This document shows positions 2,426-39,244 of a stretch of 39,315 bases of DNA, piece after piece (within the stretch, counting starts at the first letter, position 1; each line of letters begins with the position of its first letter). The position numbers were made by a program, and so were the translations under genes. The notes beneath the pieces were generated by a model. It had not been told where the DNA came from, did not search any database, and saw nothing but the letters and a program-made list of their open reading frames with translations. This DNA is from a virus: positions 1 to 39,315 of the IMG/VR virus record IMGVR_UViG_3300049846_001272; one strand, written 5' to 3'.

Positions 2426-2441
2426 TATATTTATTATAAAA
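2426..2441 (+). promoter_or_regulatory. Candidate late promoter (TATATTTATTATAAAA)
   Basis: TATATTTATTATAAAA lies in the 31-base gap between the sigma factor and the next gene and ends immediately before the ATG at 2442. The same 16 bases recur at 15812-15827. If TATATTTA acts as the -10/-7 element, transcription would begin only a few bases before, or at, the start codon. No Shine-Dalgarno sequence is present. Confidence 0.6.
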
Positions 2442-2810
2442 ATGGCTATAGATAAAGACACAAAGATTTTTGATGATGTTTCGTTTGCGACTATTGCAAA
2501 GGAAATTTATGAAAAGAAAAAGGAAAAGGACGTAACCATACAGAAGCTTATTTCTGATTTATCACCCTTGATAAAAACAGTTTCTGATGCTGGTATGTTA
2601 GTACCGCTCTTAAAAGAGTATTTAGACACGGCTGTACGTAATGATGACAATTTAGTAAAATTGGCAGCTATCGTACAAAAATTAATAGTTGCGGATAAGA
2701 AAATTGACGGCGACGGAGATGGATGGTCATTATCCGATGCAGATAAAAAACAATTATTAATTGAAGCCGAAGAAATTCGAAACAAAATGATAACGGAAGC
2801 GTCTAAATAA
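2442..2810 (+). CDS. Hypothetical protein with EF-hand-like loop
   Basis: 122 residues, acidic and helical. The C-terminal part contains DGDGDGWSLSDAD (about residues 88-100), which fits the 12-residue calcium loop of EF-hand or dockerin-type motifs: Asp at positions 1, 3 and 5, Gly at 6, hydrophobic at 8 and Asp at 12. A helix (KKQLLIEAEEIRNKM) follows. It is the first gene behind the late-type promoter, and its stop overlaps the hub gene's start codon by one base (TAATG). That suggests it is made with the baseplate hub and may be a virion or tail-assembly protein. I do not recognise the family. One loop alone does not prove calcium binding. Confidence 0.6.
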   Translation: MAIDKDTKIFDDVSFATIAKEIYEKKKEKDVTIQKLISDLSPLIKTVSDAGMLVPLLKEYLDTAVRNDDNLVKLAAIVQKLIVADKKIDGDGDGWSLSDADKKQLLIEAEEIRNKMITEASK

Positions 2811-4270
2811 TGAGTGGTGTAGTAATACTTCCTAATTCGAGTACCATAACTAAAACGCCGTTAGGCGGGTATCCATCGCGAGATCAATTTTCTCCTATTA
2901 GAGTAGGGGAGGTAGTTGATATTAGTTTAAATGGCCGCGATTCCGGTGCCGTTAAATTTAGGTATGTCGGGACTACAAATGTTCCCATTGAAGAAGTACA
3001 AAATATAGCATTGCCATTATTGGCAAATTTGCGTATATATCCGGTTCGAGGTGAATTAATAGTATTGTTTTCCTTAGGTAATGTTTATTATTTACCTATT
3101 AATCTATTAAATAACCCGATAACAAATCAAACTCTGCCTATACTTAATAATACGTTGTCAGACCAAAAAACTGACACTATTAAAACTACATTGAATAATA
3201 AAACATTTGCCCCCGCAGGACAAAAATTTATTACTACGATGTACGAAGGTGATTTAGTATTTGAGGGTAGATTCGGTAATTCTATTAAATTCGGTAGTAC
3301 TGTAAAGGAAAAAAATGCATCTTTAAACAATTATTCAAACTCCAACTCTAGTAATAATGGTGACCCGATATTCATTATTAGAAATGGAATTCGAAGTACG
3401 ACAGAAGATATACTTAAAGATGGGGCGTCTATATATATGTGTTCAACACAACGTCTAAATATGGATGACGGAGAATCAGGATTTGATGGAATTACAGCTG
3501 AATGGAGTTCATTAAATATAAAAGAAATAGATATTGAAGAACCGGAAATTGATTTACGTAACTCTTCAAATGTTGATACTGAACCTACAGTTAAACCTAA
3601 CGAACAGCCTTTACCATTAGCGGAGCCTAAAGCTCCTAAGTCTAAGAGAATTTTATTTCCGGTTGAGGAAGATGAGCCCATTAATACAGAAGCGGAGAAG
3701 AAACAAGAGGAAGAACAGATTACCGAATATTATGATATGTATTTGGCAGGTAAAAATATCGGTAAGACTAAACTAGTAGTTGAAGACGGAGTACCCATTG
3801 CAGAAAAAATAGTTGAGCCGTATAGGAAATTGAAAGAAGCGGCCGCGGCAGCTGGATTTAAATTGACTTTAAATAGTGGATTTCGTTCTATGGATGATTT
3901 AAAGTTGGGAGGAAAAATATTAGCGGGCCAGATTTCTTTAAGAAAAAAGAATGCGCGATCATCAGCAATAGCTGATTTTGGTGATCCGGATTACATTTAT
4001 AATGCACCATCCAATGCTAAATATTTTAACCCAGTAACTGCTAAGCCGGGATATAGTAATCATCAATCTGGATTTGCTATAGACATTAATACGGGTAAAC
4101 GTACCAAAGTATACAAATGGTTGGTTAGGAATGCTTTAAAATATGGTTGGGTGCGAGCAGTAGAATCTGAAAGGTGGCATTGGGAATATAGACCGACAGC
4201 CACTTCAATATATGCAAAAGTCCCTAAAAGTAGTGAAACGTGGGACGGTTTCAATGATGGTATGGTATAA
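2810..4270 (+). CDS. gp5-like baseplate hub with M15 (VanY-type) peptidase
   Basis: 486 residues, predicted to sit at the tail tip and cut peptidoglycan cross-bridges during infection. Residues about 25-110 (RVGEVVDISLNGRDSGAVKF; ILPLLANLRIYPVRGELIVLF-type strands) look like the OB domain of gp5-type hub proteins. Residues 110-310 are a polar, Pro/Glu-rich linker. Residues about 325-470 match zinc D-Ala-D-Ala carboxypeptidases of family M15/VanY: GFRSMDD, then SNHQSGFAIDI giving zinc ligands H418 and D425, and ERWHWEY giving catalytic E454 and ligand H457. T4 gp5 instead carries a lysozyme in this position and a beta-helix needle at its C-terminus. Here the needle-like part is the separate next gene. 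Peptidase motifs are complete, so it should be active. The start overlaps the previous stop (TAATG). Confidence 0.8.
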   Translation: MSGVVILPNSSTITKTPLGGYPSRDQFSPIRVGEVVDISLNGRDSGAVKFRYVGTTNVPIEEVQNIALPLLANLRIYPVRGELIVLFSLGNVYYLPINLLNNPITNQTLPILNNTLSDQKTDTIKTTLNNKTFAPAGQKFITTMYEGDLVFEGRFGNSIKFGSTVKEKNASLNNYSNSNSSNNGDPIFIIRNGIRSTTEDILKDGASIYMCSTQRLNMDDGESGFDGITAEWSSLNIKEIDIEEPEIDLRNSSNVDTEPTVKPNEQPLPLAEPKAPKSKRILFPVEEDEPINTEAEKKQEEEQITEYYDMYLAGKNIGKTKLVVEDGVPIAEKIVEPYRKLKEAAAAAGFKLTLNSGFRSMDDLKLGGKILAGQISLRKKNARSSAIADFGDPDYIYNAPSNAKYFNPVTAKPGYSNHQSGFAIDINTGKRTKVYKWLVRNALKYGWVRAVESERWHWEYRPTATSIYAKVPKSSETWDGFNDGMV

Positions 4271-4272
4271 TT

Positions 4273-4734
4273 ATGGCAAACGAAATATTTTCATCTATAA
4301 CAGCTCCCAATACATATTCCGGTGAGCAGATAGTAATAAAAACTGGACGTATCGTTCTCAATTCAAGTACTAACGATATAATATTAGCCGCGAAGAATAG
4401 TATTGCTTTGGCAGCTAATAAAGAAATACATATAAATTCTTTCGGTGATATGCACTTAAATGTGTCGCCCGGGTCTAAAATTTTAATCGGTAAACCGGAT
4501 AAAGACAGAAAAGCATACCAATCTACAGTATTAGGTAAAAATTTAAATTTATTAATAGAAGATCTATTACAAATATTAGTTACGTTACAAGTTACTACGC
4601 CATCAGGGGAAGGGCAGGTGGGACCTAAAACCGCGTCTGCAATTCAAAAATTAAAAAAGAAATACTTTAAAAAGGATTCTCCACAGTATATTTTGTCTGA
4701 TTTATTATTTATTATAGATAATAAGAAGAAATAA
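4273..4734 (+). CDS. Baseplate needle / beta-helix protein
   Basis: 153 residues. Residues about 15-75 show alternating short strands with the period expected for a triple-stranded beta-helix needle: EQIVIKTGRIVLNSS, NDIILAAKNSIALAANKEIH, INSFGDMHLNVS, ending SKILIGK. This resembles the C-terminal needle region of gp5/VgrG-type spike proteins. The C-terminal half is helical and contains a Thr/Pro/Gly-rich turn (TTPSGEGQVGPKTASAI), a pattern I associate with spike-end helices and not with a separate enzyme. It starts two bases after the peptidase-bearing hub gene. Together the two likely make the complete central spike that T4 builds from gp5 alone. The next gene overlaps its stop by one base. 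Confidence 0.65.
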   Translation: MANEIFSSITAPNTYSGEQIVIKTGRIVLNSSTNDIILAAKNSIALAANKEIHINSFGDMHLNVSPGSKILIGKPDKDRKAYQSTVLGKNLNLLIEDLLQILVTLQVTTPSGEGQVGPKTASAIQKLKKKYFKKDSPQYILSDLLFIIDNKKK

Positions 4735-6335
4735 TGCCTATAATTTGGAAATCATCCTTTGAAGCTCCAATTATCAATTTAATTAAATCAGGTGCGATAA
4801 GCAATTCCAGACAATTGGTTGATGCGATAGCGTTACATTATGACCTTTGCATTAAACAGGGAATAGCAGGCCCTGGTGCCGTTGCAGCTAAATTAGTTGC
4901 CGGAAATATTTTGGTTTTTAAACGAAACCTTTTAAACTTTTATTTTGTTACATCCGCTAAACAAAAAATTGCATTGTATGCAGTTTATATAGCGTCTATA
5001 AATTCTTTATTATCTCAATTGAGCGCATTAAAAAAAGAAATAACTTCCATCAATAAACAGATTAAAGAATATGAAGAGTCGGCAAAACAACTAGTTGATT
5101 CGGAAATCAAATCAAAAATAAGTAAGGCCAAATTAGAAAAGAAAGTTCTAGAAGAACAAATACAATTTATACGGAACAATAATATTCAAGAATTAAAAAA
5201 GACCTATGGTGAATCGATAAAAAGAATTGCCGCCCCTATGTTGCAGAATTCTAGAATACAAGGCATAAAACAAAAAATAGAATACGTATCTCAAGAATAT
5301 ACTGAATTAAATAATAAAAAGCGTGAGTATTTAGGCGAAATATCTAGAATTAAACGTAATATAACTGATTCAGTATCATCTATTCAAGATATAGCCGGTT
5401 CACTAAAAGATGCGGATAAGAAGACAGTTTTGAATAGTGCCGTTTCATTATTAGCTACTTCAAATGTTAATTCATCTATACAACATGCAAATGAAATAGT
5501 AAAAATTGTTGATTCGTATCCTATTCGGGATTTACCTAAAAATATTAATGAGTACAAATCAAATTTGTCTACTATTATTAAGTCTAAAATTGAAATATTA
5601 AATAAAAAAGAAGAAATTAAACAAGAAGTTATACGATTTGCTGAATCAAAAAAGCAGTTTCGTGAATCAATTAAGATACTTAATAAAGTAAGTAGAATAC
5701 AAGAATTACGATCCGATGTTAAAAATATAAAAGAAACCGCATTACAAGCTAAAGAAATTAGTTCACAATTAATAGCTACTAAAGATTTATATAGATTATT
5801 AAAATCTGAAAAAAATCGTATCAAACCATTAATTCAAAAAGGAATTGATAAATACGTTCCCAATTCTAGTGTGGTTAATAAATTGCGCGTGATAGCCCCT
5901 GATGCCGCAAATATGTATAAAAATATACAAACTTCTAAGGATGCGGAAAAATTCATTATTAATCAAATTTTAGTGTACGCTACTAGTTTAACAGCATTAA
6001 TAGCTTTGCGTGAATCATATAAACAATTTGTTCCTGAGCTTAAAAACACTATTAAATCTAAGTTGAAAAATGATTATGAGTTGATTTTTAATAATTTTCT
6101 AAGGGCGGCAATCATAGGATATTGGACAGGAGGGGTAATAGTCGGAGGAGGTACTGGTAATGTTATAAATCCAGGAACTATTGTTCTTCCCACTAAAATG
6201 GAATCTACTGCAAATTATGAAAACTTTATTGTGAGTCTTTCCAAAACATTTCAAACTCACTTACCTACGTTATCTGGTACTTTTGTAATACCTGGTAGTC
6301 CGCCTGTTACGGTACCGTGGATTGGATATTCTTAA
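4734..6335 (+). CDS. Long coiled-coil tail/baseplate protein, unknown family
   Basis: 533 residues. The first 90 are mixed alpha and include Gly/Ala-rich turns (GIAGPGAVAAKLVAGN). Residues about 95-440 are mainly heptad-rich helix with long runs of Lys, Glu, Ile and Leu, predicting extended coiled coils. The C-terminal 80 residues are quite different: AIIGYWTGGVIVGGGTGNV followed by Pro/Gly/Thr-rich strands and a final PPVTVPWIGYS. A similar GYWTG-type segment is, from memory, found in proteins encoded beside tail hubs of other large phages. Position between the needle and the wedge genes makes a hub or tail-tube-attached role likely. It is short for a tape measure but that cannot be excluded. 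The N-terminus overlaps the needle gene by TAATG. Confidence 0.55.
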   Translation: MPIIWKSSFEAPIINLIKSGAISNSRQLVDAIALHYDLCIKQGIAGPGAVAAKLVAGNILVFKRNLLNFYFVTSAKQKIALYAVYIASINSLLSQLSALKKEITSINKQIKEYEESAKQLVDSEIKSKISKAKLEKKVLEEQIQFIRNNNIQELKKTYGESIKRIAAPMLQNSRIQGIKQKIEYVSQEYTELNNKKREYLGEISRIKRNITDSVSSIQDIAGSLKDADKKTVLNSAVSLLATSNVNSSIQHANEIVKIVDSYPIRDLPKNINEYKSNLSTIIKSKIEILNKKEEIKQEVIRFAESKKQFRESIKILNKVSRIQELRSDVKNIKETALQAKEISSQLIATKDLYRLLKSEKNRIKPLIQKGIDKYVPNSSVVNKLRVIAPDAANMYKNIQTSKDAEKFIINQILVYATSLTALIALRESYKQFVPELKNTIKSKLKNDYELIFNNFLRAAIIGYWTGGVIVGGGTGNVINPGTIVLPTKMESTANYENFIVSLSKTFQTHLPTLSGTFVIPGSPPVTVPWIGYS

Positions 6336-6351
6336 TAAAAATACTAGTTTT

Positions 6352-6372
6352 TAATATTTATAATAAATAAAA
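6352..6372 (+). promoter_or_regulatory. Candidate late promoter (ATATTTATAATAAATA variant)
   Basis: AATATTTATAATAAATA lies 14 bases before the ATG at 6383. Positions 6354-6372 are identical over 19 bases to 37275-37293, upstream of the portal gene. The core TATTTAT-A-ATAAATA (6355-6369) is a perfect odd-centred palindrome. No clear -35 element or Shine-Dalgarno sequence accompanies it. Confidence 0.6.
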
Positions 6373-6382
6373 CAATAATACG

Positions 6383-6688
6383 ATGAAAGGATCTAAATTT
6401 GTCGATTTAATGCGCACCTTGATTAGGGAAGAAGTTAGGAAAGCTATTAAGCAAGAAATGCCTAAAATTTTAAATGAATCCAAAAAAACTATCATTAATG
6501 AGCAGCCAGTTAGCACATACAATCCCGGCGCAATTAGAAACAAATATTCTAATTTGATTCAATCAATGGATACTGAAAAACCGCAGCCGGTTAGTGGCAA
6601 ATCTTCAATTGAAGATCTATTAATGGAGACTGCTAAATCAGCTATAGCTGATGGATCACTATCAAATTTTAGGGAAGGACTAGGATAA
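6383..6688 (+). CDS. Small hypothetical protein upstream of gp25
   Basis: 101 residues. It begins with a basic amphipathic helix (FVDLMRTLIREEVRKAIKQE), has a polar middle with Pro and Asn, and ends in a second helix with a Ser/Asn/Gly tail (SLSNFREGLG). N-terminal helices of the type LIREEVRKAI occur on several unrelated phage virion proteins, so this is not diagnostic. It is the first gene after a late-type promoter and ends one base before the gp25 gene, so it is probably made with the wedge and may be a baseplate or wedge-assembly factor. No function can be assigned. Confidence 0.6.
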   Translation: MKGSKFVDLMRTLIREEVRKAIKQEMPKILNESKKTIINEQPVSTYNPGAIRNKYSNLIQSMDTEKPQPVSGKSSIEDLLMETAKSAIADGSLSNFREGLG

Positions 6689-6689
6689 T

Positions 6690-7112
6690 ATGGCAGAAGA
6701 AATTAGAATACATCCACTTGATTTAGAATCGGATGTGGCTATAGGAATTTTATTGGATATTACCGGGCCATCTGGTAAAATATTCAATCAATCCTATACA
6801 ACATTGGAGCAAGCCAAAACTAATTTCAAATGTTTATTATTAACGAATGAAGGTGAACGCGTAATGCAACCGGATTTTGGTTGTAGTATTCGAAAACATT
6901 TATTTAATCCTATAGTTCAGGATTTACGAACTAACATTAAAGAAACAATAATATCTAAAACTGAATATTGGCTACCATATATACAAATTCTGGAATTAGA
7001 AGTAGAAGCTGAAGAGGATGCGAATTTTGTTTTTATAAAAATAACTTTTTCATTATTAGACAATGAGTTTGATACTGAAACAATAAATTTAAAATTTAAT
7101 TTAACTAGATAA
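6690..7112 (+). CDS. 25: Baseplate wedge protein gp25-like
   Basis: 140 residues, matching the gp25 / phage baseplate assembly W family. This protein forms part of the inner baseplate wedge that links the hub to the sheath and starts sheath polymerisation. The diagnostic block is at about residues 35-75: SYTTLEQAKTNFKCLLLTNE, then GERVMQPDFGCSIRKHLFNP, equivalent to the conserved segments ending in G-E-R-x-x-x-P-x-F-G. A strand-rich C-terminus (VFIKITFSLLDNEFD) completes the expected fold, and the length is typical. It lies directly before the gp6-like gene with a TAATG overlap, the usual gp25-gp6 order in contractile-tail phages. Confidence 0.9.
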   Translation: MAEEIRIHPLDLESDVAIGILLDITGPSGKIFNQSYTTLEQAKTNFKCLLLTNEGERVMQPDFGCSIRKHLFNPIVQDLRTNIKETIISKTEYWLPYIQILELEVEAEEDANFVFIKITFSLLDNEFDTETINLKFNLTR

Positions 7113-8983
7113 TGGCGGCACCGGCGGTTAAAAAGGAAATAAAATACCTTAATAAAGATTTTTCCCAATTTAGGGATAACTTAATAAATTTCGCAAAAAT
7201 TTATTTTCCGGAAACGTACAATGACTTTAATGAGTCCGACCCGGGAATGATGTTTATTGAAATGGCATCATATGTGGGAGATACATTATCATATTATGTA
7301 GACAAACAATTAAAGGAATCATTATTAGCGTATGCAGAAGAGAAATCAAATGTATATGCATTGGCACAAACTATGGGGTACAAACCTAAAATATCAGTGC
7401 CTTCTTCAACTGAATTATCTGTTTATCAATTAGTTCCTAGTACAGGCGTGTCAACTAAAGTTCCGAATTGGGACTATGCATTGGTTATAGAACCAGGATT
7501 CCAAGCTGAATCCACAGAAAATTCAATTAAATTCATTTGTTATGATGGTATAGATTTTTCATACTCAGGAAGTAATAATCCAACTAAGGTTAGTGTATAT
7601 AGTGAAGCAGGAGGGCAACCATCATATTACTTGTTAGAAAAGAAAGTAAAGGCATATCACGGTGAGTTGCGTTCAACTACATTTACATTTACTGATCCTA
7701 AAAAATTTAGTAAAGTATTAATTAATGATTCGAATATAATAGGAATATATAAAATTACCGATTCTGACGGCAATGTATGGACAGAAGTACCGTATTTAGC
7801 ACAAGATACTGTTTTTGATAAAGTATCCAATATTAATGCTAATGATCCTACATTATCACAATACGCATCTACTGTACCATATCTTTTAAGATTAAAGAAA
7901 GTACCGAAGAGATTCGTTACTAGAATTACAGATGATGATACCGTTGAATTGCAATTTGGTGCCGGAGTATCAAGCGATCATGATGCTGAAATAACTCCTA
8001 ATCCGGATAACGTGGGACAAGGTATTCCGGCCGATAATCGTAATTTGGATTTCGATGTTGATCCATCGAACTTCATGTACACGAAGGCTTATGGTGAAGT
8101 CCCTGCTAACACGACATTAACTGTACAATATTTAGTAGGATCCGGTATAAAGTCTAATGTGCCTTCCAATACCATTACCAAGGTTATAGGTATGTCAGCA
8201 ACAGCAAAGAATTCCACTGATGAATCAGTTCATACATTTGTTAAGAATTCAGTTGCTTGTACTAATTTAGAATCAGCAACAGGTGGTCGCAGTGCTGAAA
8301 ATTTGGAATCAGTTAGACAGAATGCTATATCAACATTCTCTACACAAAATAGAAATGTAACTTTAGATGATTATGTAATTAGAACTTATATGATGCCTAG
8401 TAATTTAGGTGGCGTATCTAAAGTATTTGTTACGCAGGATGATCAATTAAATATGTATGATTTACGTAATAGATTAAAAAATCCATTAGCATTAAATTTT
8501 TATTGTTTAGGATATGATTCAAATAAGAATCTAATTACATTAAATCCGGCAGCTAAAGAAAATTTGAGAACGTATTTATCTCAATATAAGATGTTGACTG
8601 ACGCTATTAATATTAAGGACGCGTATATAGTTAATTTCGGAGTAACATTCGATATTATAATATTGAACAATTATAATGCTAATGAAGTATTGGTAAATTG
8701 TATTAATAATCTTAAAGATTTATTTAGCATCGATAAGTGGCAAATAAATCAACCCATTATTATATCAGAAGTTTACAGTACTATATTAGGTACACCAGGA
8801 GTACAAGCCGTGTCCTCATTATTCTTTAAAAATAAGTATGGCGAATCTAATGGGTATTCTAATAATTATTATGATATAGCTCGAGCTAATCACAATGGTA
8901 TTATATATCCTAGTTTAGATCCATGTATATTTGAAATTAAATACCCAAATGCCGATATAGTAGGCCGAGTAACAACAAAATAA
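7112..8983 (+). CDS. 6: Baseplate wedge protein gp6-like
   Basis: 623 residues, recognisable as the gp6 / baseplate J-like wedge protein. In T4, gp6 forms dimers around the hub and is central to the baseplate switch during contraction. The N-terminal signature is clear: NKDFSQFRDNLINFAKIYFP, an ESDPGMMFIEMASYVGDTLS stretch, YYVDKQLKESLLAYAEE and LAQTMGYKPK. The middle part (about 90-360) is rich in strands. The C-terminal part has the Baseplate-J style segment ARSAENLESVRQNAISTFST-like (about residues 395-415), followed by RNVTLDDYVIRTY. Length is close to T4 gp6. It overlaps gp25 at its start and is followed after one base by the next structural gene. Confidence 0.9.
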   Translation: MAAPAVKKEIKYLNKDFSQFRDNLINFAKIYFPETYNDFNESDPGMMFIEMASYVGDTLSYYVDKQLKESLLAYAEEKSNVYALAQTMGYKPKISVPSSTELSVYQLVPSTGVSTKVPNWDYALVIEPGFQAESTENSIKFICYDGIDFSYSGSNNPTKVSVYSEAGGQPSYYLLEKKVKAYHGELRSTTFTFTDPKKFSKVLINDSNIIGIYKITDSDGNVWTEVPYLAQDTVFDKVSNINANDPTLSQYASTVPYLLRLKKVPKRFVTRITDDDTVELQFGAGVSSDHDAEITPNPDNVGQGIPADNRNLDFDVDPSNFMYTKAYGEVPANTTLTVQYLVGSGIKSNVPSNTITKVIGMSATAKNSTDESVHTFVKNSVACTNLESATGGRSAENLESVRQNAISTFSTQNRNVTLDDYVIRTYMMPSNLGGVSKVFVTQDDQLNMYDLRNRLKNPLALNFYCLGYDSNKNLITLNPAAKENLRTYLSQYKMLTDAINIKDAYIVNFGVTFDIIILNNYNANEVLVNCINNLKDLFSIDKWQINQPIIISEVYSTILGTPGVQAVSSLFFKNKYGESNGYSNNYYDIARANHNGIIYPSLDPCIFEIKYPNADIVGRVTTK

Positions 8984-8984
8984 A

Positions 8985-15811: not shown

Positions 15812-15827
15812 TATATTTATTATAAAA
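15812..15827 (+). promoter_or_regulatory. Candidate late promoter (TATATTTATTATAAAA)
   Basis: TATATTTATTATAAAA is identical over 16 bases to the copy at 2426-2441. It lies in the 41-base gap after the 1177-residue gene, 12 bases before the ATG at 15840. Here there is room for a short leader. Confidence 0.62.
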
Positions 15828-17687: not shown

Positions 17688-17710
17688 GAACATTAAAAAC
17701 TGATAATATG

Positions 17711-17742
17711 AAATCGCTATATTTATTAAAGTATAGCGATTT
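17711..17742 (+). terminator. Perfect 11-bp stem-loop, candidate terminator enclosing a promoter element
   Basis: The arms AAATCGCTATA (17711-17721) and TATAGCGATTT (17732-17742) are perfect reverse complements around a 10-base loop (TTTATTAAAG). The stem is followed by TTATA, giving a short T run, so it could end transcription of the upstream gene. The candidate promoter core occupies the left arm and loop. Confidence 0.5.
17718..17728 (+). promoter_or_regulatory. Candidate late promoter (TATATTTATTA) within a stem-loop
   Basis: An exact TATATTTATTA lies 23 bases before the ATG at 17752. It overlaps the left arm and loop of the perfect inverted repeat at 17711-17742, so promoter and hairpin share bases. 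Confidence 0.58.
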
Positions 17743-17751
17743 TATACAATA

Positions 17752-19677
17752 ATGTCATACGTATTTAAAACAATAGAAAAATCACATATTACTATTACTC
17801 CTTTTTATGCAAATAAATTGTGGGTTGTGGAAAATGTGTCGGTACCTAATTTACTAGATCCTACAAATACCGTAATAGATGCTGATGTTAGTATGTCTAT
17901 TTATTATGGGTGTTATTTAACCGGGTCATTTATCAGTTCTTCTGAATATCAAACTTCCAATGGAGAATATATTAGATCAGTTTGGCATTCAGCTAATCAT
18001 TTGTATTATAGAAATTTCCAAAATGATCCATGGACATATAAACAAGGCGATATAACTAATGAAACTAGGAATATTGGGTCGAGTGTATATGTATTATCTA
18101 TACCATCTACTAGAACCGGTACTGGTATTAAACGAGGTACATTTCAATTAAAGTCCGGCTCGTTATTTTTATTTGATGATTCACAAGGTAATATTATTGG
18201 TGGTAATATAAATACATTAAATAGTTCATCATATAATGAAACATTAAAGAATTTCTATCACTGCTCATATTATTATCATGAAGGATATAAATATGCGTCC
18301 GATATTTTCGGATCTAATAGACAATCATTTTCTATATACAATCACGGTAATTTAGGTAAGACATCAAATTACAATTTATATTCTTCTTCCGGAATACCGG
18401 CTCCTATTCATTTACCTAATGAATTAACAGCAACTGCCAATAATGTAATAGTTAATAGGTATGGGCCGGATTCACCTTTTTATTTTGATATGAATCCATC
18501 TAATGGTACTGGATCTGCTTATTTAAGAATATCACATAATGATGAATTAAATTTCGGTACCAATGATGATTTCAGCGTAGCTATGTGGATATATTATTCA
18601 GGTAGTATTAGCTCAGGAGCTTCAACTCCGGTACTTGGAAGTCCGTTGGGGTCTAATTTATTATTGAGTAAAAATGGTAGGTCTATAACTACGGTACGAA
18701 AAGGAACGGGCCCGATTGCTATAGGGCTTAATAATACTATTACGGAAGATAGAGTTAAAGTAGTCGGGTATCCATATCAAGTAGAATTAATTGAGCCCAG
18801 ACATGGATATGTAGGAGCAGGAAAAATTAGATTTTCTAGAAGTGATGGTGCTATATATACTAGCGTAACATCTTCTGCTGCTATTACAGCCAATGCTTGG
18901 AATTTAATTACATGTAGAAAATCAGGAAGTCTATTGGATATTTGGGTAAATGGTTCTCAAGCAGGTACTGGAACGGATACTTGTTTAGCTACTACTAAAA
19001 ATGATTGTGATGTGTTTGTTGGTTGCCGCGGAGATTTAATTACGACCGGGCCTATATCATTAACTAGTAATGTTCCCGCTGATGGCACTTCTCAATATTA
19101 TGGTAGAATTGGTTCTGTTCATATTTTTGATTCATATATAACTGACTCGGACATAACCGGATTATATGGTACGTGGGTGTCAGGTAGTATAGTAAATAAA
19201 TGGGGCAATTATAATAATATTTATGGTAATATTTTATACAATCAAGGTATAGTAATATTAAGTAATGGAAGAGGCAGCGGAAGCACTGCGGATTCATTTG
19301 CAAATCCTTCACCGTATGTATACGGAACTCCTAGTATAGCTTTTGATTATATGAAATACAGGAGTACGAAGCCTATAACTAGTACGGAAGTAATTTGTGT
19401 ATCCGGGCAATCGGAACATAATATGTCTACTAATCCTAGTATATTAGTTAATAAGGCAGGAACGTGTAATCCAGGTATTGGTTCAAACGAATTGGGCCAT
19501 TATAATAATGACGGTGAATGTTATTCGTTCGTGACGGGATCTGATTTTTCGCCGTATATTACTACGGTAGGCCTATATAATGATGAAGGCGATTTACTAG
19601 TCGTAGGTAAATTGGCATCTCCTATAAAGAAGGCGATCAACTGCGATACCATTTTTATAGTTAGATATGACCAGTAA
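17752..19677 (+). CDS. LamG-containing virion protein, adhesin-like
   Basis: 641 residues, Ser/Thr/Gly/Tyr-rich. Residues about 245-475 read as a concanavalin A/LamG-type jelly roll: YLRISHNDELNFGTNDDFSV and AMWIYYSGS at the start, ANAWNLITCRKSGSLLDIWV and NGSQAGTG in the middle, RIGSVHIFDSYITDSDITGL at the end. LamG domains commonly bind glycans, so a role in surface recognition is reasonable. The last 45 residues match the C-terminus of the preceding protein (YITTVGLYNDEGDLLVVGKL), pointing to attachment at the same virion site. The N-terminal 75 residues (FKTIEKSHITITPFYANKLW) look like a separate docking segment. The gene has its own late-type promoter and ends just before the DNA-metabolism island. 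Confidence 0.6.
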   Translation: MSYVFKTIEKSHITITPFYANKLWVVENVSVPNLLDPTNTVIDADVSMSIYYGCYLTGSFISSSEYQTSNGEYIRSVWHSANHLYYRNFQNDPWTYKQGDITNETRNIGSSVYVLSIPSTRTGTGIKRGTFQLKSGSLFLFDDSQGNIIGGNINTLNSSSYNETLKNFYHCSYYYHEGYKYASDIFGSNRQSFSIYNHGNLGKTSNYNLYSSSGIPAPIHLPNELTATANNVIVNRYGPDSPFYFDMNPSNGTGSAYLRISHNDELNFGTNDDFSVAMWIYYSGSISSGASTPVLGSPLGSNLLLSKNGRSITTVRKGTGPIAIGLNNTITEDRVKVVGYPYQVELIEPRHGYVGAGKIRFSRSDGAIYTSVTSSAAITANAWNLITCRKSGSLLDIWVNGSQAGTGTDTCLATTKNDCDVFVGCRGDLITTGPISLTSNVPADGTSQYYGRIGSVHIFDSYITDSDITGLYGTWVSGSIVNKWGNYNNIYGNILYNQGIVILSNGRGSGSTADSFANPSPYVYGTPSIAFDYMKYRSTKPITSTEVICVSGQSEHNMSTNPSILVNKAGTCNPGIGSNELGHYNNDGECYSFVTGSDFSPYITTVGLYNDEGDLLVVGKLASPIKKAINCDTIFIVRYDQ

Positions 19678-19690: not shown

Positions 19691-19701
19691 AATATTTATT
19701 A
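19691..19701 (+). promoter_or_regulatory. Candidate late-type promoter (AATATTTATTA)
   Basis: AATATTTATTA followed by ATATAAAA differs from the exact motif only at its first base. It lies 29 bases before the ATG at 19731, and would serve the small ORF, endonuclease I and possibly the primase. Confidence 0.5.
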
Positions 19702-24507: not shown

Positions 24508-24533
24508 TATCATATATTTATTAGTATATGATA
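24508..24533 (+). repeat. Perfect 9-bp inverted repeat spanning promoter and start codon
   Basis: TATCATATA (24508-24516) and TATATGATA (24525-24533) are exact reverse complements with an 8-base loop (TTTATTAG). The right arm contains the ATG at 24528. A hairpin in the DNA or in any read-through transcript would hide the start codon of the fibre-like gene. Confidence 0.6.
24513..24523 (+). promoter_or_regulatory. Candidate late promoter (TATATTTATTA), near-leaderless
   Basis: An exact TATATTTATTA lies in the 32-base gap after the gp47-gp46 gene and ends 4 bases before the ATG at 24528. If TATATTTA is the -10/-7 element, the transcript would start at or within a few bases of the start codon. 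Confidence 0.6.
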
Positions 24534-29672: not shown

Positions 29673-29683
29673 TATATTTATTA
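29673..29683 (+). promoter_or_regulatory. Candidate late promoter (TATATTTATTA), leaderless
   Basis: An exact TATATTTATTA ends two bases before the ATG at 29686, inside a 16-base intergenic gap. With a -7 or -10 role, transcription would begin at or around the first codon. Confidence 0.58.
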
Positions 29684-29685: not shown

Positions 29686-31617
29686 ATGAAAGAAAATAAA
29701 ACAGTAGTAATATATCCAGGTAGATTCCAACCATTTTCTAAGCATCACGCGGCTGCTTTCTTGTGGGTACAAAAAGAATTTCCAGATGCTGATGCATATA
29801 TTGCTACTTCAAATGTAACTGATTCCGATAAAAGTCCTTTTAATTTTGATGAAAAAAAATCTATTATAGATGTATATGGATTGGGCAAATATGTTAAAAA
29901 GGTAGTATCACCATATAAGTCTGAAGAAATATTAAAAAAATATGATCCCAAATCTACTGTTTTAATATTTGTAGTAGGAGAAAAAGATAGGGATCGATTA
30001 GCCGGTTCATATTATAAGCCATATCCTAAAAATCCTAAGAAATTAAATTCATATGAGAAAAATGCGTATGTAGTAATAGCTCCGCATATTCATATGACTG
30101 TAAAGGGTAAGGAACTTAGTGGTAGCGAAGCGCGTAAGATATTGGGCAACCCTAAAATTTCAGATGAAAAGAAAAAGGAAGTATTTAAAAATATATTTGG
30201 GTGGTATTCATATAAAATGTATAAATTTATAACTAATAAGCTAAAGAAAAACGCTCTTAAAGAGCTTAAATTATTCTCTAAAGAGTGGTGGAATATTGGG
30301 TTAAACGAATCTATTCCAGGCGGTTTATCGCAGGGTAAGACAATAGAAGATATCGCATATCATCACTTACCCAACTTAAGAATGGGTATACGGCCATTAA
30401 TTGTCGGTTTAAAGAAACAATTAGAACAAGGAATTAAAGTTGAAATGGAGCATACAACTGACAAAAACATTGCCAAAGAAATTGCTATGGACCATTTATG
30501 GGAAAACCCAATGTATTATAGTAAATTAGTAAAAGCTAATTTGCAAGAAGGTGGCGTAGCAGGACATATGAATCATCCATTTAATTTGCCTACTGTCAAT
30601 ACCGGTGCTGATTTAATTAAAGTTTTTAAGGATGCAGTCAATTATGTATCTAAAAAACCGGCCGCAGTTAAAATTGACGGGCTAAACAACTCTATAAAAT
30701 TAGTTAACGAAAAGGGTAAAGAACAATTTGGGCTAGACTTCGGAACAATGAGAGATGTTGATATAAAAGGTATAACATTAAATGACATCGGATCTAGATT
30801 TGATACTGGGCATGGCATGATACAAGCAGGTACTGAAACTTTAACTGCATTTAACAAATGTTTACCATATATTCAAAAAGAATTGGCTGCATTAGGGTTG
30901 TCATCAAAACCCAAAATTAATAATGGTATTAAGGTAGATACTCTACTGAATATTGAAATAGTATTGGTTGGTGATGATAAACGAGCCAATGTTATAGAAT
31001 ATGATAAAAACTTTTTTGTAATCCACGGTACAGTAGAAGCAACTGCCGATCTCAAAACTAAAAAGAGAACTAAAAAAATCAAATCAGGGCCCAGTGCTAG
31101 AATAGAAGCATTAGTAAAAAAAGCTAAACCTATTATGGAAAAGCTAGGATTTGGAATATACGGTATGATAGGAACTAAAGTAAAAGAAAAAATTAATTTA
31201 GCTGAACCATTAAATTCCACGTTAACTGTAAAATACGGACCTAATAAAAAAGTAACTAAAAGTTTAAAGGATTGGTTAAAGACAGCTGAAAATCCTAGGG
31301 ACGCAAAAATAAAATATCTAGACGGAACGACGGGATATGCTATGAATAAGAAAAATTATTTGAACATACTAAATCAAGCCCTGCCATTAGTTAAACTAAC
31401 TACTAATCCGGATGATCATAAAAAACTGATAGATGGTGCCGTAATGTATCATGCTACTAGAATACTAGGTAATGCGATATTAAAAGCATTAGGATCGGAA
31501 GTAGGAGATGTATTAAACCATGAGGGTATAGTAATTCGTACAGATGATGGGCAAACATTTAAAATTACTGGAGAATTTATAGTTGATTCATTATCTAGTA
31601 AATTCGGTAAAAAATAA
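29686..31617 (+). CDS. Nucleotidyltransferase - DUF5661-like - ligase-like fusion protein
   Basis: 643 residues in three parts. Residues 5-180 resemble the cytidylyltransferase/NMN adenylyltransferase fold: VVIYPGRFQPF (G12-R13-F14), then SKHH at 18-21 where the family has (H/T)xGH, and LSGSEARKIL (S145-R150) matching the ISSTxxR motif. Residues about 250-285 (KVEMEHTTDKNIAKEIAMDH, then LWENPMYYSKL) match a DUF5661-like helical segment. Residues about 290-640 look like a covalent nucleotidyltransferase (nucleic-acid ligase/DUF6267-like) domain: motif I VKIDG with K329, motif IV EGIVIR at 613-618 and a motif V-like FKITGEF with K626. This predicts AMP transfer to a nucleic acid end or another target. 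The pathway is unknown; NAD or RNA/DNA repair are options. No signal peptide. It has its own promoter. Confidence 0.65.
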   Translation: MKENKTVVIYPGRFQPFSKHHAAAFLWVQKEFPDADAYIATSNVTDSDKSPFNFDEKKSIIDVYGLGKYVKKVVSPYKSEEILKKYDPKSTVLIFVVGEKDRDRLAGSYYKPYPKNPKKLNSYEKNAYVVIAPHIHMTVKGKELSGSEARKILGNPKISDEKKKEVFKNIFGWYSYKMYKFITNKLKKNALKELKLFSKEWWNIGLNESIPGGLSQGKTIEDIAYHHLPNLRMGIRPLIVGLKKQLEQGIKVEMEHTTDKNIAKEIAMDHLWENPMYYSKLVKANLQEGGVAGHMNHPFNLPTVNTGADLIKVFKDAVNYVSKKPAAVKIDGLNNSIKLVNEKGKEQFGLDFGTMRDVDIKGITLNDIGSRFDTGHGMIQAGTETLTAFNKCLPYIQKELAALGLSSKPKINNGIKVDTLLNIEIVLVGDDKRANVIEYDKNFFVIHGTVEATADLKTKKRTKKIKSGPSARIEALVKKAKPIMEKLGFGIYGMIGTKVKEKINLAEPLNSTLTVKYGPNKKVTKSLKDWLKTAENPRDAKIKYLDGTTGYAMNKKNYLNILNQALPLVKLTTNPDDHKKLIDGAVMYHATRILGNAILKALGSEVGDVLNHEGIVIRTDDGQTFKITGEFIVDSLSSKFGKK

Positions 31618-31644: not shown

Positions 31645-31655
31645 TATATTTATAT
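31645..31655 (+). promoter_or_regulatory. Candidate late promoter (TATATTTATAT)
   Basis: TATATTTATATAAAAT lies 14 bases before the ATG at 31670 and differs from the main motif only at its last bases. It probably drives the run of small genes that follows. Confidence 0.55.
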
Positions 31656-33902: not shown

Positions 33903-35605
33903 TGGATATTGAATTATTAGATGAAATACTTTTTGAGTGGTCATATAGGTTAAAGGATGGTATTCCTGATTTAGATGATCCGAATAAAACACCTATTTTA
34001 AATCAAATTTTAATAGAACGCGGGGTTGATCCATTTTTCATTTATGAGGGGTCTATATTACCGAAACCGTATACAGGCAATGATACGTCGTTAAAAGAAG
34101 GATTAGTGTGTTTATTTTTCGATTGTTTTAAAAATGATAAATTAAAACAAGAAATACTTAAAATACATTTACAATCCAAGTCATCATCACTTAAAAAGGA
34201 AGAATTAAAATCTGTAATTAGTAAGATTCATACTGTATATACATCTAATTCATCTAATTATGGTGCCGGTCAATCATATCCTAAAAATTTAGATAAATAT
34301 TTAGCATGGGCATGGGCTTCTAGGAATGAGTTGGATACAGTCAATAATTCATTGTCATGTGCTAACGCTATACATTCTAGTATATCTAATTCCAAAAAAG
34401 GTACTATAATACGAAATATTGAATATGATAATATTAGAAAAAAGGCAGTTGATTTGATAAAAGAAGAATATTCATTATCATTTAAGCCAGACAATTGGAA
34501 TCCGGGCGACGTGTATTTAGTTATCGATAAATCAACATTAAATAAAGTACACGGATCGGATTCGATTAATGTGGGAAAGGACAGTCTTAATTCATTATTT
34601 GGTGAAAAGGATAAAATCATATCATTATCATTAAAAGAACAACGTGCTCAAGCAGGTAAGGCATCTACCTTTTTACAGAATGTCTTTGTTAAAAATTTTG
34701 ATAGCGAAGTTCCTATGTCAGAAAGATTTGGAAATGCTGACAATAAACAAAATATGTTGGTAATAAGCTCCGTTAACAGATTTATGGATTATTATTTCGG
34801 CGGAGCGAAAAATAAAGTAACGAAGTCAAAGAGACAACAAAGTTATATAAATTCAATATCGAAAGGAAATAGAATACATAAATCGATTAATGCTATTTTA
34901 AAGGCAGCCGGTAAACCTATTATAAAATCAGAAGATATAGAATTCGTTCCTAAGGAAGAAGATTTCCATAAACAGAATGGACATATTTTTACTGAATTAT
35001 TAGCCGCAGTAAAAAAGATTAGAAAGGACCTAAACTCTGAAAATAAGGTTAAGAAATCAGAAAAAGATTTTATTGAATCTAGGAATAAATTCATAAAATA
35101 TTTAGAAGATTTAAAAGTGGAAGTCGCATCCGACACATCGGAGTCATTCCTAAAAAAAATAAATACTGATAATGATGATGAATCAGCTACTAAGATGCTT
35201 TCAGCTAAAATAGCTGTATATAGCACTGCTATCCTAATTATAGATAAATGGCTCGATAAAGAAAATAAAGTGTCACCAGCCTTTAAAAAAATAACTAAGA
35301 TCGCCAATCCATTCGTTGCATTAACGGCGTATGCAATAGCTGAAGCGGGTATATCACCTAATTTTTGGAAAGTAATAGGAAGCGCAACTCGCGATATAGG
35401 CCATGCTGAATTCTTCAATGCGGCCGCTGAAGTAACGGTCGACAGTTCTACATCGCCTATAACATTATATGATTCATCAACGGCAGCGGGGTTTGAATTG
35501 CGATACACGACGTCAGTGGGCAATCAAAATTATAAAACTACACTGACATTTAGATTTGCTAATAGCGAATTACGTATAGAGGTTTCGAAATTTATTAAGG
35601 TATGA
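33902..35605 (+). CDS. Large hypothetical protein upstream of terminase, 567 aa
   Basis: 567 residues with no domain that I can name. It is mostly helical and charged, with a distinctive central segment (LSFKPDNWNPGDVYLVIDKS) and later SLKEQRAQAGKASTFLQNVF. Residues about 330-480 are Lys-rich helix. The C-terminal 60 residues are beta-rich (GFELRYTTSVGNQNYKTTLT). There is no signal peptide. It sits directly before the terminase large subunit with a four-base overlap (ATGA), a position where some phages encode packaging or head-injected proteins. No small terminase subunit is recognisable in the window, and this protein is too long for a usual one. A virion-internal or packaging-associated role is possible but unsupported by motif. 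Confidence 0.55.
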   Translation: MDIELLDEILFEWSYRLKDGIPDLDDPNKTPILNQILIERGVDPFFIYEGSILPKPYTGNDTSLKEGLVCLFFDCFKNDKLKQEILKIHLQSKSSSLKKEELKSVISKIHTVYTSNSSNYGAGQSYPKNLDKYLAWAWASRNELDTVNNSLSCANAIHSSISNSKKGTIIRNIEYDNIRKKAVDLIKEEYSLSFKPDNWNPGDVYLVIDKSTLNKVHGSDSINVGKDSLNSLFGEKDKIISLSLKEQRAQAGKASTFLQNVFVKNFDSEVPMSERFGNADNKQNMLVISSVNRFMDYYFGGAKNKVTKSKRQQSYINSISKGNRIHKSINAILKAAGKPIIKSEDIEFVPKEEDFHKQNGHIFTELLAAVKKIRKDLNSENKVKKSEKDFIESRNKFIKYLEDLKVEVASDTSESFLKKINTDNDDESATKMLSAKIAVYSTAILIIDKWLDKENKVSPAFKKITKIANPFVALTAYAIAEAGISPNFWKVIGSATRDIGHAEFFNAAAEVTVDSSTSPITLYDSSTAAGFELRYTTSVGNQNYKTTLTFRFANSELRIEVSKFIKV

Positions 35606-37212
35606 GCTCACAAATCAATTTAAGGGAAATAATAAAAGAAGAATATAAGAAATGTGCCGCGTCACCTATATACTTCATGAAAAAATATTGCTACATTCAG
35701 CATCCGCAACGTGGTAAGATTCTTTTTCATTTATATCCATTTCAAGAAAAAACATTACAGGACCTATTCGAACACGACTATAATATTATTTTAAAGTCCA
35801 GACAATTAGGTATTTCTACATTGACTGCGGGGTATGCGTTATGGTTGATGTTATTTAAGAGCGACACTAACGTATTGGTAATTGCTACTAAACAAGACGT
35901 AGCTAAAAACTTGGTTACGAAAGTACGTACCATGTATGATAATTTACCTTCGTGGCTACGTGGATCTGAAAAACCTACTGCTAATAATAAATTAAGTTTG
36001 GAATTAGAAAATGGTTCTAAAATTAAAGCAGTATCAAGTGCGGGGGACAGTGGTCGTTCAGAAGCATTATCATTATTGATTATAGATGAAGTAGCTTTCA
36101 TTGATGACAATAAAGTGCAACCTATTTGGGCATCATCACAACAAACCCTAGCTACCGGTGGTAAGGCAATCTTATTATCTACACCCAATGGTACTGAAAA
36201 CTTTTTCCATAAAATGTGGGTGGACGCAGAAGAAAATCCTAGAACTAAGTTCAATACTATTAGGTTAAAATGGGACGTGCATCCGGAACGAGATATTACT
36301 TGGAGAGAAGAACAGAACGAATTATTAGGACCTAGATTAGCTGCACAAGAATGTGATTGCGATTTTTCTACATCAGGTAATACGGTAGTTCAGATGGACG
36401 TTATCGATTGGTACTTGCAAACACATTGTAAAGAACCATTAGAGAAACGAGGAATAGACGGCAATTATTGGATATGGGCGTACCCGGATGCTAGTAAGAA
36501 TTATATAGTCTCATGCGACGTTGCTCGAGGTGATGGTTCGGATAATTCAACTATTCAAGTATTCGAAGCTGAATCTTTGGAACAAGTAGCTGAATATAAA
36601 GGACAATTAGGCACTAAAGATTTTGGTAATATGGCGGTAGCCGTGGCTACTGATTATAATGATGCATTGTTAGTTATTGAAAATTCCAATATTGGTTGGG
36701 CAGCAATCCAACCTGCAATTGATAGGAATTATAAAAATTTATTTCATTCAACTAGAAACGAAGATGTGCTAGTAGATCCAATGAAACACATTAAACGTGG
36801 GTTGGATTTGCGTGATAATTCGGATATGATACCCGGCTTTACAAACAGTACTAAAACTCGACCTTTAATGATTAGTAAATTTGAATTATATCTTAGAGAG
36901 CGAGCAGTAATAGTTAGAAGTACTCGTTTAATGACTGAGGTTAAGGTATTTATTTGGAAAAATGGTAAGCCACAAGCTCAATCAGGTCATAACGACGACC
37001 TAGTATTGGCAGCTTGTATAGGTATATGGGTGCGTGATACCGCTTTACATTTAAGGCAGGTAGGGTTGGAATTAAATAAACAAATGCTTAATTCATTTAC
37101 TAGAGTAGGCGGTGTTTATACTCCATCCATGAATATGCCATTAGGCGATCCATGGAAATGGAAACCGCATCCTAATAGACCTGATGAGGATTTGGGATGG
37201 TTGATACGTTAA
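35602..37212 (+). CDS. 17: Terminase large subunit, T4 gp17-like
   Basis: 536 residues. The packaging motor pumps DNA into proheads and cuts it. The ATPase part shows an adenine-binding/Q-type area (LYPFQEKTLQDL), a Walker A variant KSRQLGIST at about 63-71, and Walker B plus catalytic acid LLIIDEVAFID near 158-168. The coupling motif is SSTPNG-like LLSTPNGTENFFHKMW at about 195-210. The nuclease part carries the three acidic sites typical of the RNase H-fold terminases: CDVARGDGSDNST near 305, IENSNIG near 360 and HNDDLVLA near 463. Length and motif order agree with T4 gp17. A strong terminator follows its stop, and its start overlaps the preceding gene. The portal gene comes next. Confidence 0.94.
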   Translation: MSSQINLREIIKEEYKKCAASPIYFMKKYCYIQHPQRGKILFHLYPFQEKTLQDLFEHDYNIILKSRQLGISTLTAGYALWLMLFKSDTNVLVIATKQDVAKNLVTKVRTMYDNLPSWLRGSEKPTANNKLSLELENGSKIKAVSSAGDSGRSEALSLLIIDEVAFIDDNKVQPIWASSQQTLATGGKAILLSTPNGTENFFHKMWVDAEENPRTKFNTIRLKWDVHPERDITWREEQNELLGPRLAAQECDCDFSTSGNTVVQMDVIDWYLQTHCKEPLEKRGIDGNYWIWAYPDASKNYIVSCDVARGDGSDNSTIQVFEAESLEQVAEYKGQLGTKDFGNMAVAVATDYNDALLVIENSNIGWAAIQPAIDRNYKNLFHSTRNEDVLVDPMKHIKRGLDLRDNSDMIPGFTNSTKTRPLMISKFELYLRERAVIVRSTRLMTEVKVFIWKNGKPQAQSGHNDDLVLAACIGIWVRDTALHLRQVGLELNKQMLNSFTRVGGVYTPSMNMPLGDPWKWKPHPNRPDEDLGWLIR

Positions 37213-37240
37213 TTTTTTACTCTTATTCAAAAACAATGCC

Positions 37241-37265
37241 GGAGCTAAGAATTTAGCTCCTTTTT
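37241..37265 (+). terminator. Rho-independent terminator after terminase
   Basis: GGAGCTAA (37241-37248) pairs perfectly with TTAGCTCC (37253-37260) around a 4-base loop GAAT, followed by TTTTT. It closes the transcription unit ending with terminase and lies 9 bases before the portal promoter. Confidence 0.85.
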
Positions 37266-37273
37266 ACTTAATC

Positions 37274-37293
37274 TATATTTATAATAAATAAAA
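37274..37293 (+). promoter_or_regulatory. Candidate late promoter before portal (TATATTTATAATAAATA)
   Basis: TATATTTATAATAAATA begins 8 bases after the terminator T-run and 31 bases before the portal ATG at 37305. Bases 37275-37293 are identical to 6354-6372. Its position directly after a strong terminator is the clearest sign that this motif class restarts transcription. Confidence 0.68.
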
Positions 37294-37304
37294 AGCATAA
37301 AAGA

Positions 37305-39200
37305 ATGGCTGATTACAGTTTATTTGATCGATTAAAAAAATTATTTTCCACGGACGTAATAATAAGAAACGTCGGTGGTAAACAGCTAAAGGTTTTAGAC
37401 ACGAACAGATTACAGTCGTCCGGTAATTTAGCATCGAATACCTTAGTAGATAGATATACCAAACTATACAATTCTAGAATACCTATATCCGGGGCTACGT
37501 CAGGCGAAGCTATAATGATTTATAGAAAGGAAATGTTTACTGACTATGAAGCTATGGATACGGATAGTATAATAGCTTCATACTTAGATATATTAGCAGA
37601 CGAAGTTACGGTAAAAGATGAATTTGGTGACACGCTAACCATACGAAGTGACAATCCTAAAGTACAAACCGTATTACGAAATTTATTTTATGATATCTTA
37701 AATCTAGAATTTAATTTATGGCCATGGGTTCGTAATTTATGTAAATATGGGGACGCGTTCTTCAAATTGAAATTAGTTGAAAAATATGGTGTTATCGGTA
37801 TTGAACCATTATCATCATACCAATTAATACGTGAAGAAGGATTAAATCCACTTAAACCGGACACGATTACCTTTAAAGTTGACCCTTCGAGTATGGGTTC
37901 TAGGCATTTCTTATCACATACATCTCAACGTGAAGAACTAGAAAATTATGAAGTAGCACACTTTAGATTATTAAATGATACTAACTTTTTGCCGTATGGT
38001 AAGAGTATGTTAGAGCCTGCACGTAAAGTTTGGAAACAATTAGTATTAATGGAGGATGCGATGCTAATTCATAGAATTATGCGATCCGCGTCTAAGCGAG
38101 TATTTAAAATTGATGTAGGAAATATACCGCCAAATGAAGTGGATGCGTATATGCAAAAAATAATACAACAGACTAAAAAAATACCATATCAAGATCCGAC
38201 AACTGGAGATTATAATCTAAAATTCAATATGCAAAATATGGTTGAAGATTTTTATATACCGGTTCGTGGTGGTAACGATGGCAATGCTATTGAAACTTCT
38301 GAGGGATTGAATTATGATGGTATACAAGACGTTGAATATTTGAAGGGAAGGATGTTAGCTGCATTAAGAGTTCCTAAGGCGTTCTTAAATTTTGAAGAGG
38401 GTGTATCCGGTAAAGCTACCTTAGCAGCTGAAGATCTTCGTTTCTCTAGGACAATAGAACGTATACAAAGAATTGTTATATCTGAATTATATAAGATAGC
38501 CGTAATTCATTTATATATACAGGGATTTACGGATTCAGAAGTAATTGATTTTGAATTATCAATGACTGCCCCATCATCTATTTATGAACGTGAGAAAATT
38601 GAAATATGGCAAACCAAGGTAACATTGGCTAAAGATATTATGGATGCGGGTATAGCATCGCTTTCTTGGATCTATAAGAATATTATGAATATGACTCCGG
38701 AAGATATGGAACGTGAACGGAATATGGTATTGGAAGATGCTAAATTTAAGTTCCGAATAACCCAATTGACTGAGGAAGGTAATGATCCAATTAAAACGGG
38801 TAAATCATTTGGTACAGCACATGATATAGCTACGTTATATAAGAGCGATGAAGAAGGTAAGTTACCGCCGGGATATGATGAAAAGAATCCTAAGGACGTG
38901 GTTTCTTCAACGGACAAATTAGGTCGCCCCAAATCAAATGATTCATATAAAACACATGATCATCCAATGGGCCAAGATCCATTAGGCGATAAAGAAAATA
39001 AGAAAAAAACGACACACGCACCGACAAGTCATATATTAGACGGTCTAAAGAAAGTCCCTAGATTGACGACTAGAAACAATAAAAGCTCTAAAACTTTATT
39101 GGAATCATTAAATAGTGTTCCTAAAAAAGACACACAAATTAGTATAGATTTCTTAAATGAGGATAATATTATAGATGATGTTGATCAAAATACCAATTAA
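37305..39200 (+). CDS. 20: Portal vertex protein, T4 gp20-like
   Basis: 631 residues, forming the twelve-subunit portal ring through which DNA enters and leaves the head. The T4-type signature is spread over the protein: an N-terminal LFDRLKKLFSTDVIIRNVGG segment, YRKEMFTDYEAMDTDSIIAS at about 70-90, FNLWPWVRNLCKYGDAFFKL near 140-160, and the core ILKGRMLAAL-type block YLKGRMLAALRVPKAFLNFE at about 345-365, followed by GKATLAAEDLRFSRTIERIQ. The C-terminal 100 residues are polar and probably disordered (KTHDHPMGQDPLGDKENKKK). Length is somewhat over T4 gp20 (524) because of this tail. It is preceded by a promoter and a terminator, and followed by the start of another head-type gene. Confidence 0.92.
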   Translation: MADYSLFDRLKKLFSTDVIIRNVGGKQLKVLDTNRLQSSGNLASNTLVDRYTKLYNSRIPISGATSGEAIMIYRKEMFTDYEAMDTDSIIASYLDILADEVTVKDEFGDTLTIRSDNPKVQTVLRNLFYDILNLEFNLWPWVRNLCKYGDAFFKLKLVEKYGVIGIEPLSSYQLIREEGLNPLKPDTITFKVDPSSMGSRHFLSHTSQREELENYEVAHFRLLNDTNFLPYGKSMLEPARKVWKQLVLMEDAMLIHRIMRSASKRVFKIDVGNIPPNEVDAYMQKIIQQTKKIPYQDPTTGDYNLKFNMQNMVEDFYIPVRGGNDGNAIETSEGLNYDGIQDVEYLKGRMLAALRVPKAFLNFEEGVSGKATLAAEDLRFSRTIERIQRIVISELYKIAVIHLYIQGFTDSEVIDFELSMTAPSSIYEREKIEIWQTKVTLAKDIMDAGIASLSWIYKNIMNMTPEDMERERNMVLEDAKFKFRITQLTEEGNDPIKTGKSFGTAHDIATLYKSDEEGKLPPGYDEKNPKDVVSSTDKLGRPKSNDSYKTHDHPMGQDPLGDKENKKKTTHAPTSHILDGLKKVPRLTTRNNKSSKTLLESLNSVPKKDTQISIDFLNEDNIIDDVDQNTN

Positions 39201-39212
39201 TTAAAAAATTCA

Positions 39213-39223
39213 TATATTTATTA
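39213..39223 (+). promoter_or_regulatory. Candidate late promoter (TATATTTATTA), first of two
   Basis: An exact TATATTTATTA lies 27 bases before the ATG at 39251 in the gap after the portal gene. It has a near copy 21 bases further on (39234-39244). Confidence 0.58.
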
Positions 39224-39233
39224 AAAAAATGCA

Positions 39234-39244
39234 TATATTTGTAA
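39234..39244 (+). promoter_or_regulatory. Candidate promoter (TATATTTGTAA), second of two
   Basis: TATATTTGTAA lies 6 bases before the ATG at 39251. Its first eight bases, TATATTTG, match the known Bacteroidota -7 consensus TAnnTTTG exactly, linking the phage motif to host-type promoters. Confidence 0.5.

Follow-up and report, generated by a model that had tools for sequence, protein, structure and literature searches.

An IMG/VR record of 39.3 kb carries all of its genes on the + strand, and in the gaps between them one AT-rich element recurs. We analysed this record at its full length of 39,315 nt (the window) and asked whether the element is a promoter, which genes it would serve and which sigma factor would read it. 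The initial annotation had suggested a late promoter served by a gp55-type sigma factor adapted to the sequence of a Bacteroidota host. Our analysis makes it likely that the element serves a large clade of T4-related myoviruses as their late promoter and that a gp55-like sigma factor of the phage itself reads it. This reading is well supported, and we infer from sequence and structural comparisons the pairing of sigma factor and box, the late expression of the genes and the start sites.

The window and its relatives

The window comes from a T4-related myovirus and covers part of its genome. Its portal protein matches Portal_T4 at E 8.5e-67, and other genes encode a terminase, baseplate wedge proteins, a primase, a gp46-like SbcC protein and an endonuclease. 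A DNA-level search of phage records with positions 1-25000 returned no match. The nearest named relatives at the protein level are Flavobacterium phage immuto, which is complete and has a Bacteroidota host, and Microcystis phage Mel-JY01. The sigma gene has the same neighbourhood in immuto as in the window, 3′ of a phosphohydrolase gene. Mel-JY01 (PP395634.1) is SD-rich, unlike the Flavobacterium relatives, and its annotation includes a gene for ribosomal protein S21 (L166 22183-22410).

The following features of the window are relevant here:

1730-2410, + strand: candidate gp55-like late sigma gene, 226 aa; region 2 homology at about 5-122, conserved C-terminal helical domain at about 120-219
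2426-2436, + strand: putative late box TATATTTATTA before gene 2442; core end 7 nt from ATG, leaderless-type spacing
6353-6363, + strand: putative late box AATATTTATAA before gene 6383; baseplate wedge gene 6690 further downstream
15812-15822, + strand: putative late box TATATTTATTA before gene 15840
17718-17728, + strand: putative late box TATATTTATTA before gene 17752; within the left arm of a strong hairpin
19691-19701, + strand: putative late box AATATTTATTA before ORF 19731 and endonuclease gene 19900
24513-24523, + strand: putative late box TATATTTATTA before gene 24528 (1713 aa); leaderless-type spacing, 6 nt
29673-29683, + strand: putative late box TATATTTATTA before nucleotidyltransferase gene 29686; leaderless-type spacing, 4 nt
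31645-31655, + strand: putative late box TATATTTATAT before gene 31670
37241-37260, + strand: predicted intrinsic terminator GGAGCTAAgaatTTAGCTCC-TTTTT between terminase and portal
37274-37284, + strand: putative late box TATATTTATAA before portal gene 37305
39213-39223, + strand: putative late box TATATTTATTA before the gene starting at 39251
39234-39244, + strand: degenerate, doubtful copy TATATTTGTAA; core interrupted by an A to G change, 8 nt from ATG 39251

A strict core is enriched in the gaps

The core of the box is ATATTTAT(A/T), which in the window is extended to TATATTTATTA. The extended form occurs exactly six times on the + strand and never on the − strand, and all six copies lie in gaps directly before genes. 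The core itself was found 14 times on the + strand, 10 of them within the 653 nt of gaps, and four times on the − strand, none of them in gaps. Among the 11 copies listed by the initial annotation, 10 contain the core, with ATATTTAT starting at 2427, 6354, 15813, 17719, 19692, 24514, 29674, 31646, 37275 and 39214; the copy at 39234 does not. The two last copies do precede a gene. It starts at 39251 (MKKIKHNKLRNTGILFELLSA) and runs off the end of the window, and the part present is similar to the beginning of a box-bearing gene in the related loci L014 and L085.

When the gaps were simulated with a first-order Markov model that keeps their dinucleotide make-up, they held 0.53 cores on average and four at most, and none of the 5000 trials reached the 10 observed. 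The core was present in nine of the 10 gaps of at least 25 nt; the exception precedes the primase and gp46-like genes, which are not known as late genes in T4. Boxes are absent inside the tightly packed operons of the window. A scan for sigma-70 consensus sequences revealed no promoter excess.

Some sites have further features. At 17700-17755, directly 5′ of gene 17752, the putative promoter lies within a strong terminator-like hairpin (dG −19.5, z −6.6), with the box in its left arm and loop. A compact module of an intrinsic terminator followed by a late box recurs at 37241-37284 of the window and in related loci (L001 at about 8761, L083 at about 8255, L164 at about 20567). As at 2426, a box stands at the corresponding place after the sigma gene in L001 and in immuto. 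Gene 29686 (29686-31617) encodes 643 aa with an N-terminal nucleotidyltransferase motif, GRFQPFSKHH; it lies within the virion-gene region and is kept in relatives.

The box is shared by a large set of relatives

We fetched related IMG/VR loci by their sigma protein (2), portal (80), terminase (80) and sigma family (80). In the upstream gaps of 238 such loci, ATATTTAT was the most strand-biased 8-mer, with 459 sense and 41 antisense copies, and it ranked first in each large set (147/3 by portal, 144/7 by terminase and 168/31 by sigma); the sets may overlap and the relatives are not independent, so that these counts are not probabilities and the strand asymmetry is the point. Further AT-rich words in the gaps were strand-biased as well, less than ATATTTAT. 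Run on T4 as a control, the same pipeline ranked TATAAATA first (12/6). A logo built by expectation-maximisation had eight strong positions, (t)ATATTTAT(A/T), and over hundreds of sites in the relatives it contained no conserved position at −35 or −33, which bears out the proposal that the element has no upstream partner.

Upstream of the portal gene, the box was found in the window, L083, immuto and Mel-JY01, and in 17 of the 77 portal loci overall, because most of them couple the portal tightly to the terminase. It was present both in SD-rich loci (n=97; 157 sense, 26 antisense) and in SD-poor loci (n=82; 183 and 9), which probably belong to different host groups; the box therefore follows the lineage of the phage more closely than its translation habit or its host. 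In Mel-JY01 the count was 13/1 over 100 kb, less sharp than in the closest relatives. The 90 kb examined of jumbo phage LR756508, which encodes a distant homologue of the sigma factor (41% identity), lacked the box, and thus the sigma family and the box do not coincide family-wide. Neither ATATTTAT nor TATAAATA gave a signal in the portal region of RM378, and a stretch of S-RIM8, a weak control, gave little. In the open-access literature we found no late promoter described for such phages.

A candidate late sigma factor

The family of the sigma protein counts at least 580 relatives in IMG/VR. Direct searches with the 226-aa window protein gave little: the match to Pfam Sigma70_r2 was weak and below the cut-off (E 0.0011), there was no PHROG match, sequence matches to sigma libraries stayed below the cut-offs, and a sequence search against solved structures returned nothing. 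Family-level comparison went further. By hhalign, region 2 of the family could be aligned to the gp55 proteins of T4-like phages at E 7.5e-4, where the probability is low (25%) though the E-value is significant. The T4 late sigma family, phrog_234, had a sole match in the whole immuto genome (E 0.008), and this was gp118, the orthologue of the window protein.

Among solved structures, the one most similar to an AlphaFold2 model of the window protein (pLDDT 86) was that of T4 gp55 in its open complex (7d7c_F; 112 residues at 3.0 A), with Z 10.4, a value that alone is weak for a helical protein. Other sigma region 2 structures followed close behind, and nearly the whole list consisted of sigma factors. 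These three lines of homology to gp55 are individually modest and concordant. Together with the box statistics they support the proposal of a late promoter paired with a gp55-type sigma factor at 1730-2410. In the annotated records that we saw, the gene is labelled "hypothetical"; it is now a candidate late sigma gene.

The C-terminal domain (120-219) is conserved and helical, with an invariant NKKALYI motif. Taken alone, it best matched the C-terminal part of a sigma-H (3mzy) at Z 6.2, a weak score tied with SRP M domains and too little to identify the domain as a region 4. We found no conserved copy of the T4-like SLDFLYE tail, the hydrophobic motif for the sliding clamp, in the family, and the C-terminus is variable after the helical domain; some part of it may still serve as a functional counterpart.

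The register of T4

Over hundreds of sites the conserved core reads A-TATTTAT-(A/T). Placed in the T4 register from −13 to −6, the box is TATTTATA against TATAAATA in T4, which amounts to two changes, A to T at −10 and −9. The gaps of the window hold no sense copy of TATAAATA; the box there is TATTTATA or TATTTATT. Since TATTTATA is the reverse complement of TATAAATA, orientation matters here, and strand and position show that the + strand carries TATTTATA in its sense orientation. We read the box as a previously unlisted variant of the T4 late promoter system, and the view that it differs from the T4 element and rather resembles a Bacteroidota −7 box is not supported.

T4 gp55 flips A-12, A-9 and A-8 into pockets (PMC7892883), and A-12 and A-8 are kept in TATTTATA. 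The residue aligned to T4 Y97 of the A-12 pocket is Y in 80 of 81 sequences and F in the window; that aligned to T99 of the A-8 pocket is S in 71 of 81, S or T in 74 of 81, and T in the window. At N13 of the −9 pocket, 70 of 81 have T. The position of the helix-loop-helix (HLH) residue R114, which contacts the template strand, is Y in 81 of 81, in a part where the alignment is uncertain. That the pocket residues follow the changes in the box may be read as a rationalisation, not as a test.

In the mechanism that we propose, the box ATATTTAT(A/T) would act alone, without a −35/−33 partner, and the late genes would begin between a few and about 30 nt downstream of it. The phage sigma factor would displace the host sigma on the host RNA polymerase by means of its gp55-like region 2, melt the box and capture bases of the non-template strand. 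Of the bases that T4 gp55 flips, A-12 and A-8 are retained, with T instead of A at −10 and −9.

Spacing to the start codon

The spacing between core and start codon is bimodal, with 35 cases at 2-8 nt (peak at 4), one at 9-10 and a main peak at 14-18; control words lack such a pattern. If transcripts begin 4-7 nt after the core, the short-spaced boxes would yield leaderless mRNAs. This suggests that some late mRNAs are leaderless, with three candidates in the window, genes 2442, 24528 and 29686. In the product of gene 29686 the nucleotidyltransferase motif begins at residue 12, which settles the choice of start codon, and in L083 the orthologue of this gene has a similar spacing (5 nt).

Two promoter classes in immuto and the alternative readings

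The main competitor of a phage-specific promoter is a host-type one, in which the primary sigma factor of Bacteroidota would recognise the boxes as TAnnTTTG-like −7 elements with a weak or missing −33 motif. Promoters of this sigma factor have the form TTTG/TANNTTTG, with TAHHTTTG at −12 to −5; F. johnsoniae has a weak −33 motif and a nearly invariant G at −5 (PMC6847099). The overlap with the late box is large (TATATTTA), and immuto indeed uses a related form. Between 60.9 and 76.2 kb of its genome, a region of many small genes that we judge to be early from their kind, the boxes read TATATTTAG, and 96% of the 24 sites have TTG at a fixed distance of 23 nt on the upstream side. This TTG-N20-TATATTTAG is a host-type arrangement. 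About two dozen copies in that region (L163; NC_055915.1) are near-identical, TTG-N20-TATATTTAG(g/a)TATcAATAATTAAAACA, and the conserved stretch continues beyond the −7 box.

The structural region of immuto has another box, TATTTAT(A/T), with 22 of 23 copies in gaps, and here the fixed TTG is found in only 5%, as in 2-5% of late boxes. These boxes precede the terminase, portal, sheath, tube, hub and tape measure genes; the gap upstream of the major capsid gene lacks one. Read in the host register, late boxes have the leading T in 44-57%, A in place of the final G in 87-99% and an extra T next in 82-99%. In the window, TAnnTTTG occurs 38 times on the + strand and only twice in gaps, and TTG.{18,21}TA..TTT is missing from the gaps. 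The single exact TAnnTTTG copy that had been put forward (39234, TATATTTGTAA) is the one copy without the core. The occurrence of the box in SD-rich phages and in the Microcystis phage Mel-JY01 speaks against a sigma factor adapted to Bacteroidota sequence, and the phage has its own sigma gene. We therefore regard host-type promoters as an improbable explanation of the late boxes. Convergence with the host-type −7 sequence is nevertheless conceivable given the partial overlap, because the early promoters of immuto use TATATTTAG.

A signal for translation initiation, such as an AT-rich leader in the mRNA 5′-UTR, would explain why boxes lie near start codons in phages whose Shine-Dalgarno sequences are partly missing. 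Such a signal would sit poorly with distances from 2 to more than 30 nt with a gap at 9-10, and with packed operons that have no boxes and whose genes still need translation starts; we consider it very improbable. That AT-rich words merely cluster by chance in gaps that are themselves AT-rich might be argued from the scan for TATATTTATTA with two mismatches, which found 152 copies against 155 expected. As that pattern is at chance level, only the strict core is informative, and the core is about 20-fold above the null of gap composition, strand-specific and recurrent in 238 loci, which leaves chance a negligible probability. The late promoter read by a gp55-like phage sigma factor remains the reading we prefer.

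Clamp and coactivator

Late transcription in T4 requires gp45 and gp33 (PMC2988020). The profiles PF02916, PF09116 and the bacterial PF00712 had no match in the complete immuto and Mel-JY01 genomes, where a diverged clamp could be missed; as a control, PF09116 finds the T4 clamp at 4e-53. A T4 gp33 query, which matched its T4 control, likewise had no match in the two phages, gp33 being short and fast-diverging. NC_055915.1 and PP395634.1 thus have no recognisable gp45/DnaN clamp despite T4-like structural genes. The immuto annotation lists a family A DNA polymerase.

Clamp-free late transcription in immuto and Mel-JY01 is only a possibility, because diverged gp45 and gp33 could be missed. A broader and more speculative picture, which we hold to be rather unlikely as a whole, would have the clade use a two-domain late sigma factor, with a gp55-like region 2 and its own region-4-like C-terminal domain, on TATTTATA. 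It would do so with neither gp45 nor gp33 and uncoupled from the replisome, and some late mRNAs would be leaderless, the box lying 4-7 nt from the start codon. This raises the question of whether clamp-coupled late transcription is general among the relatives of T4.

Comparison with known systems

For very common uncultured T4-related phages, with at least one clade member, Flavobacterium phage immuto, in culture, the analysis provides a late-promoter consensus that can be tested, together with a candidate for the late sigma factor. The box allows late operons to be predicted in contigs of the clade, and it is a naturally occurring two-base variant of a promoter for which cryo-EM has shown the contacts with protein.

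The promoter of the Bacteroidota primary sigma factor (PMC6847099) shares A..TTT with the late box and occurs in a close form at the early genes of immuto. The late box differs in having no −33 motif, A for G at −5 and an additional T, and in being found also in relatives that probably have other hosts.

Variants of the T4 late promoter are known from T4-like phages Aeh1 (CTAAATA), S-PM2 and KVP40 (PMC1524935), and like the box described here they indicate that the late consensus drifts with phage lineage. They change at −13/−12, whereas the present clade changes at −10/−9.

The closest known system is the T4 late promoter with gp55 (Straboviridae; PMC2988020, PMC7892883). Both have a lone −10-type box before late genes with no −35 element, and the candidate sigma factor resembles gp55 in its region 2 and in the pocket residues that go with the conserved A-12 and A-8. 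Unlike in T4, the central AA is TT (TATTTATA) and an A stands before the box, gp45 and gp33 homologues were undetected in the two complete relatives, and a conserved C-terminal helical domain seems to take the place of the hydrophobic C-terminal tail of gp55.
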